The notes below the pieces were generated by a model, which saw only the letters and a program-made list of their open reading frames with translations, was not told the DNA's origin and made no database searches. Below, in pieces: positions 44,263-49,841 of a stretch of 64,000 bases of DNA. The DNA lies in the NCBI GenBank assembly GCA_001464275.1, contig LNFL01000179.1:1-64000 (forward strand). Direction: 5' to 3'. Each line of letters opens with the position of its first letter. Position 1 is the first letter of the stretch. This DNA is from Actinobacteria bacterium Ga0077560. Lineage in GTDB: Bacteria > Actinomycetota > Thermoleophilia > Miltoncostaeales > Miltoncostaeaceae. A program made the position numbers and the translations under genes.

Positions 44263-44397
44263 TCAGGCCGACAGCCGAGCGCGGCCCTTGGCGCGCCGGC
44301 GCTTGAGCACCGCACGGCCGGCGCGCGTGCTCATGCGCTTCCTGAAACCGTGGGTCTTCTGTCGCTTGCGTCGATTCGGCTGATAGGTCCGCTTCAC
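44263..44397 (-). CDS. rpmH: 50S ribosomal protein L34
   Basis: The 44-residue protein reads [18 protein letters not shown], then [20 protein letters not shown], ending RARLSA: a textbook L34 sequence. It starts at GTG 44397. As the first gene of the minus-strand origin operon it is probably expressed from the -10 at 44481-44486, with a leader of about 77 nt. Confidence 0.98.
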
Positions 44398-44480
44398 GGG
44401 CCGGTTGCTCCTTCGTGCATTGGGCCGTGGACGTGCTCGGGCGAGCGACCGGGTCCGGGCCGGGTCACACGGGGTGACGG

Positions 44481-44486: not shown

Positions 44487-44692
44487 CCAGAGGGTCTCAG
44501 CCCCGGGGAGGCCCCGGATCCTCCACAGGCTGGGAAAACCCTGTGGACAACCCGCTGACGCCCATTGTCATGGGGTTTTCGGATGTCGTCCGACGGCATC
44601 GCTAGGGCCTCCACGACGAAAATTCCCGCATGCACCCATGATCGGATTTCCACAGGCCCTTCCGGCTCTTCCTCCGGGCGTGTCGCCCCGGT

Positions 44693-44698
44693 TACAGT
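44693..44698 (+). promoter_or_regulatory. -10 element TACAGT for the GHKL gene and dnaA
   Basis: TACAGT predicts transcription from about 44705. No other promoter-like sequence is evident before dnaA, so this may drive both genes. Confidence 0.4.
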
Positions 44699-44744: not shown

Positions 44745-45467
44745 GTGATCTCCCAGCAACTCCCCGCACCCCCGCGTCGTGTCTCCAGCGCCCTGTCCGC
44801 CAGGGTCGCGGTGTACTCGAGCAGGAACGAACCCCCCGAGCTCTCCGAGCTCTCGGAGGCCGACCCCGGCGTGCTCGTCGAGCGCCTGTTCGAGGTCGTC
44901 GCCCGGTGGGCGCGCCTGCCCGTGGTCGCCGTCCGCGAGATCATCGAGAACCTGGTCCACGCGGGCTTCCGCGACGCCCTGGTGAGCGTGCTCTGCGACG
45001 GCCGCGTCGTGCGTGTGTCCGACTCGGGCCCCGGAATCGAGGACCCCGTGCTCGCCCTGCAGCCCGGGTTCTCCACCGCGGGTCCGCAGGAGCGGATGGT
45101 CGTGCGGGGTGCCGGCTGTGGACTGCCGCTGGCCGCCTCCCTCATGGACGCCGAGGGCGGCGCCCTGGAGCTGGTCCACAACATCGGCGGGGGCACCGTG
45201 GTCACGCTGTCCGCGCCGTCGCTGCCGGGGGAGGAGGGCGACCCCGCCGCCACCGCGCCGCACGACGACGCGCGGGTGCTCATGGCGCTGCTGCTGGAGC
45301 TCGGGCCCTCACGCCCGGACCGGCTGGCCGCCGAGCTGGGATGGCCCGTTTCGCGCTGCGGGCGCGAGCTCGTGGTGCTGGAGGCCCGGGGGTACGTGAG
45401 CCGGTCGGAGGAGGGCGTCCGGGCGCTCACCCCGGTCGGCTCCGGCCTCCTGGCCACCCTCTTCTAG
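44745..45467 (+). CDS. GHKL ATPase-domain protein with C-terminal winged helix, directly upstream of dnaA
   Basis: With GTG 44745 the product is 240 residues. It has a histidine-kinase-like ATPase domain: N-box VREIIENLVHAGF, G1 VRVSDSGPGIEDP, G2 VVRGAGCGLPLAASLMDAEG and the final strand GGGTVVTLSAP. There is no HisKA helix, sensor domain or phosphorylatable histidine module. The last 65 residues (VLMALLLELGPSRPDRLAAE to GSGLLATLF) look like a winged-helix DNA-binding domain. The pairing suggests an ATP-responsive transcription or replication regulator, with anti-sigma-like kinases as an alternative. A later GTG at 44811 has a better ribosome-binding sequence. It ends 27 bp before dnaA and is probably co-transcribed. 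I cannot name the family. Confidence 0.7.
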   Translation: MISQQLPAPPRRVSSALSARVAVYSSRNEPPELSELSEADPGVLVERLFEVVARWARLPVVAVREIIENLVHAGFRDALVSVLCDGRVVRVSDSGPGIEDPVLALQPGFSTAGPQERMVVRGAGCGLPLAASLMDAEGGALELVHNIGGGTVVTLSAPSLPGEEGDPAATAPHDDARVLMALLLELGPSRPDRLAAELGWPVSRCGRELVVLEARGYVSRSEEGVRALTPVGSGLLATLF

Positions 45468-45494: not shown

Positions 45495-46842
45495 GTGTCG
45501 CCCGAAGACGAAGTCCCGCAACCTTCCACGGCCGCAGACGCGGTGTGGACCGAGGTCTGCGACAAGCTCCGCTCCACGCTGAACGCGGCGACCTACGGGT
45601 TCGCCTTCGACCGCGCGCGTCCCATCGAGCTCACCGACGACCGTCTCACGGTGGGCGTCGACACCGAGTTCGCCCGGAACTGGGTCCAGCAGCGGTACAT
45701 GACCCTGCTCAAGGACGCGCTGTTCGAGGTCACCGGCAGCGACCTGGACGTCACGGTGCTCGTGGCGCCGGCGGAGCAGAACGGTGACAACGGGATGGTG
45801 CTGCCGCCCGCGCCGGCCGAGCTGCCGCGGCGCTCCCAGGGCCGGCTGCAACCGCGGTTCACCTTCGACTCGTTCGTCACCGGACCGAGCAACCGGTTCG
45901 CCCAGGTCGCCGCCCTCGCCGTCGCTGAATCACCTGCAAAGGCGTACAATCCGCTGTTCATCTACGGCGGGGTGGGGCTGGGGAAGACGCACCTGCTGCA
46001 CGCCATCGGGCACTTCGTCGACACGAACTACCCGGAGCTATCCTACCTCTACGTGTCGGTGGAGACCTTCACCAACGAGTTCATCAACGCGCTGCGTGAC
46101 GGGAACATCCGGTCGTTCAAGGACCGGTACCGGAACATGGACATCCTCCTCATCGACGACATCCAGTCGCTCCAGGGCCGCGAGCAGACCCAGGAGGAGT
46201 TCTTCCACACGTTCAACGCGCTCCACGACGCCGGCAAGCAGATCGTCATCGACGCTCGAGGACCGACTGCGGTCACGGTTCGAGATGGGCCTCATCACCG
46301 ACATCCAGCCGCCGGACCTGGAGACGCGCATCGCGATCCTCCGCAAGCGCGTCCTGCACGACGGTTACGAGGTGCACGACTCCGAGGTGCTCTCGCTGAT
46401 CGCCGCCCGGGTCGCCACGAACGTGCGCGCGCTGGAGGGCGCCCTCACCCGGGTCGTCGCCCACGCGTCCATCGCCGCCCGGCCGGTGTCGGTGGAGCTG
46501 GCCAGCGAGGTCCTCCAGGACCTGTACCCGCCCGGCGAGGGCGCGGTCACGATCGACGGCATCCAGCGCGAGGTGGCGCACTACTTCAAGGTCGGGATCG
46601 ACGAGATCCAGAGCCACAAGCGCACCCGCCACATCGTCACGCCGCGGCAGGTCGCCATGTACCTGAGCCGTGAGCTCACCGAGAGCTCGCTGCCGGTCAT
46701 CGGCCGGGCGTTCGGCGGCCGGGACCACACCACGGTGATGTACGCCTGCCAGAAGGTGGCCAAGCAGATGGCCGACGAGGGCGAGATCTACGCGGCGGTG
46801 CAGGTCCTCACCAGCCGGCTCACCGGCTCGGCGGCCCGGTGA
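45495..46842 (+). pseudogene. dnaA: Chromosomal replication initiator DnaA, frameshifted in the AAA+ domain (probable sequence error)
   Basis: The first frame (GTG 45495, preceded by AAGGG) encodes domain I, a linker and the AAA+ core: Walker A YGGVGLGKTHLLHAIG, Walker B MDILLIDDIQSLQGREQTQE, up to HDAGKQIVI. Near 46246-46252 the reading shifts to STLEDRLRSRFEMGLITDIQ, then box VII and domain IV with RTRHIVTPRQVAMYLSRELT and the DnaA signature GRAFGGRDHTTVMYA. The conserved sensor I stretch SSDRPPxxI is absent, so about 29 nt appear deleted; the 1348-nt span is 2 short of a codon multiple. DnaA is essential, so a collapsed or mis-assembled sequence is much more likely than a true pseudogene. 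Confidence 0.9.
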
Positions 46843-48236: not shown

Positions 48237-49378
48237 CCGATGCGCCGCCCTCCGGGGCGGCGTGGCGCGTCGCCCGGCTGGAGGTCACCGACCTCCGGTG
48301 CTGGCGGCGCGCCGAGCTCGAGCTGCCGTCGGGGCTCGTGGTGGTGTGCGGACCCAACGGCGCCGGCAAGACCTCCCTGGTGGAGGCGATCGTGCTGGCC
48401 ACCCTCGGGGTGAGCCCCCGGACCGCCCAGCTCTCGGAGCTGGTGCGGCACGACTGCCCCGCGCTGCGCGTGGCGGCCGAGTTGGAGGGCCCGCCGCCCG
48501 CCGCACCCCGCACGCGCCGTGAGATCGGCTACGCGGCGGGGATCGGTCGACGGCTGGTCGCGGACGGGGCGGCCGTGCGGCAACTCGCCGCCTGGCGCAT
48601 CCCGGGATCCGTCCTGGTGTTCGTCCCGGAGGAGCTGCGGGCGGTGAAGGGCCCCCCGGCGGCGCGCCGCCGGTCGCTCGACCGCCTGCTGGAGGCCGTG
48701 GTTCCCGGGTTCGCGGAGGACAGCGCGGCGTACCAGGAGGCGCTGGCCCAGCGGAACGCACTGCTGCGCCGCGCGCGGGCCGGTGAGACCGACGTCCGGG
48801 CGGCGTTCCCCTGGGAGGCCCGCATGGCCACGCACGGCGCCCGCATCGCCGCCGCCCGGCGGCGGGAGCTGGCCGCGCTGGTCGAGCCCTACGCGCGATG
48901 GCTGGAGGCCCTGGGCGGCGGTCCGGGCGGGCGCCTGGCGCTGGAATCCTCGCCCTCCGGCCTGCAGGGCGACCACGAGGAGGCCCTGGAGGCCTCCCTG
49001 CGGGCCCATCTGGAGCGCATGCGACCGCGGGAGCTGGCGGCCGGGATGACGATCAGCGGGCCGCACAGGGACGACGTGTGGATCGGCTCGGGCGACCACG
49101 ACCTGCGGCGGCTGGGAAGCCAGGGGGAGCAGCGCACGGCGGCCCTTGCGCTCCTGCTGGCCCACCGGGAGCGCCTCATCGCCTCCGGCACCTGGCCGGT
49201 GCTGCTGCTGGACGACGTCCTGTCGGAGCTGGACCCCGGGCGGCGGGCGGCGCTGCTGGGGGCGGTGGAGGGCACGGGGCAGGTCATCCTCACCGCGGCC
49301 GACCCCGAGGCCCACGCAACGGCCGGGGCGCGCGACGCGACCGTGGTGCGCGTGAGCGGGGGAACCATTGCCACCTGA
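48233..49378 (+). CDS. recF: DNA replication and repair protein RecF, putative CTG start
   Basis: From CTG 48233 the product is 381 residues. It begins LTDAPPSGAAWRVARLEVTD, and LEVTDLRCWRRAELELPSG is the expected first RecF strands. Walker A is VVVCGPNGAGKTSLVEAI, the signature region LRRLGSQGEQRTAALALLLA, and Walker B LLLDDVLSELDPGRRAALL. RecF loads RecA at gaps with RecO and RecR. No ATG, GTG or TTG occurs in frame before the first conserved strand. The CTG overlaps the dnaN stop as CTGA, like two other genes in the window. Without it the protein would start after the first strands at GTG 48332 or 48338. Confidence 0.88.
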   Translation: MTDAPPSGAAWRVARLEVTDLRCWRRAELELPSGLVVVCGPNGAGKTSLVEAIVLATLGVSPRTAQLSELVRHDCPALRVAAELEGPPPAAPRTRREIGYAAGIGRRLVADGAAVRQLAAWRIPGSVLVFVPEELRAVKGPPAARRRSLDRLLEAVVPGFAEDSAAYQEALAQRNALLRRARAGETDVRAAFPWEARMATHGARIAAARRRELAALVEPYARWLEALGGGPGGRLALESSPSGLQGDHEEALEASLRAHLERMRPRELAAGMTISGPHRDDVWIGSGDHDLRRLGSQGEQRTAALALLLAHRERLIASGTWPVLLLDDVLSELDPGRRAALLGAVEGTGQVILTAADPEAHATAGARDATVVRVSGGTIAT

Positions 49379-49841
49379 GCGCCCGCGATGGAAGCGCCGC
49401 CGGCGGGACGCGTTCGCGGCCACCGACCTGCTGGCCAAGTACCTCGACCGTGCGCCCCAGCAGGGGGACCTCGCCTCCGCCTGGCAGCGCGCGGTCGGCC
49501 GGTATGCCGATGAATCACTGCCGATCCGCGCCTCGAAGGCCGGTGTGGTGACGATCGCCTGCGCGGACGCATCGGTGGCGCAGGACATCGCCGCGCGCGC
49601 CGACCGGCTGGCCGAGGCCCTGGGCCGCGAGGCCGGGGTGCAGGTGCGCGGCATCCGCGCGGTGATCGCCGACCATGTGCTGCCGGCCAAGGAGGCGCCG
49701 GCCCCCCGCCCGCCCGAGCCGCCCGGGGAGGCGGCCCGGGCCGCCGCCGCGGGCATCGCCGCCCAGGTGGAGGACGAGCAGGTGCGCGCCGCGATCGAGC
49801 GCGCCGCCGCGGCCGCCCTGCAGCGCCGCTGGACCCCGTGA
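49368..49841 (+). CDS. dciA: DciA-like (DUF721) protein, probable replicative helicase operator
   Basis: The 157-residue protein starts at TTG 49368 behind a GGGGGA ribosome-binding sequence and overlaps recF by 11 bp. Its N-terminal half shows the DUF721 pattern: ATDLLAKYLDRAPQQGDLAS, then WQRAVGRYADESLPIRASK, GVVTIACADASVAQDIAARA and LGREAGVQVRGIRAVI. DUF721/DciA proteins act in loading the DnaB helicase in bacteria lacking DnaC, and the recF-dciA order is common in actinobacteria. The C-terminal alanine- and proline-rich tail is less conserved. Confidence 0.8.
   Translation: MPPERPRWKRRRRDAFAATDLLAKYLDRAPQQGDLASAWQRAVGRYADESLPIRASKAGVVTIACADASVAQDIAARADRLAEALGREAGVQVRGIRAVIADHVLPAKEAPAPRPPEPPGEAARAAAAGIAAQVEDEQVRAAIERAAAAALQRRWTP

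Follow-up and report, generated by a model that had tools for sequence, protein, structure and literature searches.

Within the window, i.e., the whole 64,000-nucleotide stretch of DNA analysed here, an open reading frame (ORF) encoding a GHKL-type ATPase domain followed by a winged helix (GHKL-wHTH) lies directly before dnaA, and this observation was confirmed as real (Table 1). The stop codon of the ORF ends at 45467 and the GTG of dnaA lies at 45495, giving a gap of 27 bp. This spacing, as well as the location of the gene between DNA containing DnaA-box-like sites (at 44519, 44542, and 44646) and dnaA, agrees with the preliminary description of the locus. GTG is likewise the sole start candidate in the open frame of the closest relative (G001, 87% identity). 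Start codons of homologs were assigned by rule. Comparison with the same relative yielded a dN/dS of ~0.17 for the gene, and therefore purifying selection on the GHKL-wHTH protein; a chance ORF or misannotation was ruled out by the homologs, the dN/dS, and the fold.

Table 1 Features of the GHKL-wHTH and dnaA locus (coordinates refer to the window)
Feature	Position	Strand	Basis
rpmH (L34), divergent upstream neighbour	44264..44398	-	Neighbourhood comparison
DnaA-box-like sites 44519 (+) and 44542 (-)	44519..44550	.	Corresponds to a three-box module in relatives, with the middle box degenerate
ATTCCCGC element	44622..44629	+	Motif 15-17 bp before DnaA box, 31/32 f1 loci
Promoter-proximal DnaA-box-like site ATTTCCACA	44646..44654	+	Box scan
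Possible -10 element TACAGT	44693..44698	+	Read directly; TAGAGT/TACAGT-like in many relatives
GHKL-wHTH gene	44745..45467	+	GTG start, 240 aa; conserved in 90 loci
N-terminal beta-beta-helix segment, residues 17-55, before N box	44793..44909	+	DSSP of AlphaFold2 model
GHKL/HATPase_c core, residues ~60-158	44922..45218	+	PF02518 match 62-158; model
N box E65-x3-N69-x2-H72-A73	44937..44963	+	E65, N69, H72 in 90/90 homologs; A73 in 88
G1 box D93-S-G95-P-G97	45021..45035	+	D and both G in 90/90 homologs
G2 box R121-G122-A-G124-C-G126	45105..45122	+	Three glycines in 90/90 homologs
C-terminal winged helix, residues ~167-240	45243..45464	+	DprA_WH/TrmB/MarR-like; model
dnaA, second gene of unit	45495..46842	+	Bac_DnaA 2.7e-58 and Bac_DnaA_C 2.9e-31, in different frames

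The dnaA gene starts chromosome copying and is normally essential. Alignment with G001 revealed that dnaA lacks 29 bases at window 46249-46250, which shifts its frame, and no second dnaA copy was found in the genome. Because dnaA is normally essential, the gap is likely an assembly or consensus artefact, with a real lesion being possible. Further downstream, a small ORF after recF (window 49368-49841) presumably encodes a DUF721/DciA-like replication protein.

Pfam searches and an AlphaFold2 model upheld the initial assignment of the product as a GHKL ATPase fused to a putative DNA-binding winged helix. The window protein matched HATPase_c (PF02518) over the cutoff with an E value of 2.5e-8, and its fold, its N, G1, and G2 boxes, the N-box Glu and Asn, and the G1 Asp place it in the GHKL ATPase superfamily. 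Winged-helix models matched residues 167-224, with DprA_WH over and TrmB slightly under the cutoff, and homologs exceeded the cutoff for TrmB or HTH_IclR (clearly) or for MarR; these curated models and the fold mark the domain as a MarR/TrmB/IclR-like winged helix. The AlphaFold2 model, built with 42 aligned homologs, reached a mean pLDDT of 90.1 and comprised an alpha/beta domain of GHKL type that a flexible low-confidence linker at about residues 162-165 joins to a compact winged helix (helices at residues 174-186, 191-198, and 202-214, and a hairpin at 218-228), and the model's pTM of 0.65 means that the relative placement of the two domains is uncertain. Just ~60 residues precede the N box, and the order is GHKL domain and then winged helix. 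As originally claimed, Pfam domains and the model gave no HisKA, receiver, or sensor part in the window protein, which, having no HisKA/DHp domain with a phospho-acceptor His, does not qualify as a sensor histidine kinase. Among 90 homologs drawn from many families, E65, N69, H72, D93, G95, G97, G108, G122, G124, G126, G139, and G150 were invariant, and R207 and R226 of the winged helix were kept in 85/90. As judged from this alignment, the putative ATP pocket is kept phylum-wide and is under stricter constraint than the winged helix.

No NCBIfam model reached its cutoff for the window protein or five homologs, and Pfam assigned generic domains only. Neither a description of the GHKL-wHTH protein nor biochemical or genetic data on any family member were found in open-access full text, in which subscription journals are largely absent. 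The preliminary view that this is not a described system is in line with the curated libraries and with an open-access literature that omits most subscription journals. A known anti-sigma or kinase family, assignment to which the preliminary description had named as one of two refuting outcomes, was ruled out by model cutoffs, the scores lying far under them. In addition, a defence gene was rejected as a candidate, given that the window protein had no PADLOC match; homologs matched PADLOC only via the winged helix of CARF/Csa3-type regulators.

In total, 90 loci carry the gene, of which 10 had insufficient flank, leaving 80 assessable; a few loci from one genome are counted twice (e.g., L104 and L112). 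A codirectional dnaA was present immediately 3' of GHKL-wHTH in 80/80 assessable loci, 79 being found by script and the remaining one (L052) having its dnaA start cut by the contig end, and an unlinked GHKL-wHTH gene was seen in none of them. Between the GHKL stop and the position where dnaA is expected to start, the median distance was 12 bp (n = 71, with values from -25 to 195). Moreover, in six further chromosome-scale contigs the gene stops no more than ~110 bp before the contig ends, which is where circular sequences cut at dnaA would place it, and dnaA was confirmed at the first bases of two of the six. Gene order is fixed, with an oriC-like module followed by GHKL-wHTH and then dnaA across short gaps, and a divergent rnpA, often together with rpmH, lies upstream in most loci. 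The dnaA linkage, whose absence in relatives had been put forward as an argument against the initial interpretation, was kept in every assessable gene-bearing locus and is phylum-deep within Actinomycetota.

DnaA-box-like sites were abundant upstream of the gene in family f1 of the class Thermoleophilia, numbering 109 versus 4.0 expected from shuffles (~27-fold, 30 relatives), and were laid out as a module of up to three boxes with one more beside the promoter. The spaced DnaA-box triad was detected in 54/90 loci with the gene, 12/47 loci without it, and 0/2740 shuffles; its occurrence in both kinds of loci indicates an origin feature that is not tied to the GHKL-wHTH gene. In loci without the gene, the oriC-like DnaA-box DNA abuts dnaA. 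A promoter consensus scan that also demands a -35 element gave no match in the window upstream DNA. A TATACT-type sequence is situated ~10-14 bp upstream of the start codon in family f2, and family f4 has a DnaA box ~20 bp upstream of a TAGAAT-type sequence. The upstream sequences suggest that the promoter of the unit precedes the GHKL gene, near a DnaA site through which DnaA may autoregulate the unit. GC skew within the window gave no clear origin placement.

A composite TTTTCCCGC-N15-17-DnaA-box element was also identified beside the promoter in 31/32 f1 loci (window 44622-44654), with no occurrence in the 58 other loci bearing the gene or in the 47 loci lacking it, and each of 7 genomes contains a single copy of its strict form, in every case at the dnaA-operon promoter. 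This composite is a candidate family-specific origin or operator element. It looked promising as a GHKL-wHTH operator in f1 but is not claimed as such because it is absent from the other families with the gene, and the DnaA-box triad and the CTGCAAA element are not put forward in that role since they also occur in genomes without it; across the 90 gene-bearing and 47 gene-lacking upstream regions, no operator specific to GHKL-wHTH could be assigned. In several classes, the final DnaA box of the cluster is followed at ~10-25 bp by the CCTGCAAA/CTGCAAA-like sequence (L042-L061 and L109-L111, and L062, L064, L066, and L070, which lack the gene), and this sequence is possibly part of an origin unwinding module.

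Named relatives identified by sequence are MAGs of Thermoleophilia or Actinomycetota, which places the window in a Thermoleophilia MAG. GHKL-wHTH was present in 65/249 genomes of Thermoleophilia, where it was confined to families f1 (at a guess, Miltoncostaeaceae), f2, and f4 among the matches listed. Genomes of f3 and f5-f8 had no profile match among the matches listed, and no trace of the gene was found at the dnaA locus of their representatives. A search covering Actinomycetota at a threshold of E <= 1e-12 returned profile matches in 162/396 genomes, many of them MAGs, including part of Thermoleophilia and Coriobacteriia; a few of these, with E values around 1e-13, may come from ordinary kinases, which leaves a true count a little under 162. 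Cultured carriers include Eggerthella lenta, Atopobium (Lancefieldella) parvulum, and Cryptobacterium curtum, and one gene-bearing genome is presumably that of Rubrobacter xylanophilus. The E. lenta homolog (L115:34-1182) has 382 residues with both domains retained, set apart by a proline/glutamine-rich linker of ~110 residues, the length of which differs strongly between related genomes. The public record behind L037 bears the title Bifidobacterium breve MAG, yet its dnaA locus places it with Thermoleophilia-type contigs, and it is probably mislabelled. On a midpoint-rooted DnaA tree of 101 rows, which has weakly supported deep forks and some long branches, presence and absence of the gene required 5 changes (3 forced by well-supported branches) versus 32 for shuffled labels. 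The pattern fits early presence with later losses, a direction made tentative by the weak deep forks, the long branches, and the midpoint root.

Taken together, GHKL-wHTH probably controls the initiation of DNA replication and, as such, would be undescribed. An invariant ATP pocket that is not accompanied by kinase parts, the DNA-binding fold, and co-encoding with dnaA point to a nucleotide-responsive regulator, and from its sequence context it is most likely a nucleotide-sensing protein made together with DnaA, with three candidate targets, namely the promoter, oriC, and DnaA itself. In the mechanism proposed here, GHKL-wHTH and DnaA would be produced from the same transcript, the GHKL pocket would bind ATP or ADP, and the bound nucleotide would set how the winged helix is positioned or whether it dimerises; the protein would bind the rpmH-oriC-promoter DNA immediately upstream and thereby tune how strongly dnaA is expressed, how readily DnaA reaches the origin boxes, or both, according to energy state. 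Besides the domain evidence and the dnaA linkage, this mechanism draws on the purifying selection, on the oriC-like modules upstream of the gene and the f1 composite element, and on two precedents, the non-kinase, ADP-binding GHKL domain of NifL and the ATP-dependent competition of AdpA with DnaA at oriC. We give this reading, a nucleotide-binding GHKL and winged-helix DNA-binding protein that adjusts dnaA expression or origin access, a little less than an even chance. The wider proposal of an ancestral actinomycetotan initiation regulator, whose nucleotide-driven winged helix at oriC and the dnaA promoter would make DnaA supply or origin firing responsive to adenylate charge, is credible, with the balance tilted somewhat against it. 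Counting against regulation of replication are that gene order near oriC can stay conserved without functional coupling, that many bacteria within Actinomycetota live without the gene, and that the upstream elements gave no operator assignable to this protein.

Conserved gene order is the core of one alternative, in which GHKL-wHTH would be a housekeeping transcription factor with distant targets, placed beside dnaA only through rigidity of the oriC neighbourhood. The rnpA-rpmH-dnaA-dnaN neighbourhood is indeed strongly conserved, even in loci without the GHKL-wHTH gene; however, in assessable loci the gene always lies between DnaA-box DNA and dnaA with short gaps and is never unlinked, and such a role seems rather unlikely. 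A SpoIIAB/RsbW-type protein kinase that phosphorylates another protein in trans, and so ties replication to stress or sigma-factor control, would suit the N-terminal topology, the similarity to HATPase_c_2, and the N-box Glu that is invariant in the 90 homologs. Nevertheless, TIGR01925 requires 135 bits and scored 20.4, neither a STAS nor a sigma-factor gene was among the neighbours examined (rnpA, rpmH, dnaA, and dnaN), and a winged helix is absent from SpoIIAB-type proteins, which together render a kinase improbable.

Alternatively, GHKL-wHTH could regulate DnaA at the protein level, through nucleotide-dependent direct contact with this AAA+ protein, with the winged helix mainly anchoring it at oriC or making protein contacts. 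The occurrence of dnaA beside the gene in each of the 80 assessable loci is consistent with such contact, as are the closest PDB folds in Foldseek, which are histidine kinase catalytic (GHKL) domains and include the NifL-NifA complex at rank 50. NifL also offers a precedent, in that its GHKL domain, which shows no kinase activity, binds ADP and acts as a control on NifA, an AAA+ protein (PMC9866876). Yet the winged helix retains canonical features across classes, which favours DNA binding, and direct contact with DnaA as the main mode of action is considered unlikely.

A position before dnaA that is kept in all assessable loci across the phylum, invariant ATP-binding residues, and a predicted DNA-binding domain make GHKL-wHTH a strong and directly testable candidate for linking energy state to chromosome replication in Actinomycetota. 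To our knowledge, DnaA regulators have been described in a few model bacteria, and for the most part they do not extend to this phylum. The lineages of Streptomyces and Mycobacterium presumably lack the gene, and its absence from the lineages of these model genera would explain why it was missed. Its presence in cultured organisms, including E. lenta, means that it can be tested.

Among known systems, sensor histidine kinases provide the best sequence and fold matches through their HATPase_c domains. Examples such as sporulation kinase B (PDB 3d36), HK853, and ZraS share the ATP-binding fold and the N, G1, and G2 boxes with GHKL-wHTH, which differs in having a winged helix instead of a HisKA/DHp domain, a phospho-acceptor histidine domain, and a sensor. 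SpoIIAB/RsbW anti-sigma factors are similar as stand-alone GHKL proteins without a DHp domain, whereas GHKL-wHTH falls far under the family cutoff (TIGR01925), shows no STAS or sigma-factor pairing, and bears an extra winged helix. The Corynebacterium diphtheriae protein DIP2311 (PDB 3lmm) was at Foldseek rank 2, aligned over 258 columns with the 240-residue model, and the match suggests that the similarity spans both the GHKL-like domain and the winged helix. It differs in its length (556 versus 240 residues), in domain orientation (rmsd 15), and in a large extra N-terminal domain before the GHKL-like part, which is absent from the window protein and which we take to be AlbA_2-type; we know of no link of DIP2311 to dnaA. 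NifL likewise uses its GHKL domain as a nucleotide sensor and has an AAA+ partner, such a partner being proposed for GHKL-wHTH, but it contains PAS domains, has no winged helix, and acts in another pathway. Finally, although Streptomyces AdpA has no recognisable ATP-binding motif, belongs to an unrelated family, and is encoded outside the dnaA operon, it resembles the role proposed for GHKL-wHTH in being a DNA-binding regulator of actinobacteria whose competition with DnaA at oriC depends on ATP (PMC3411110).
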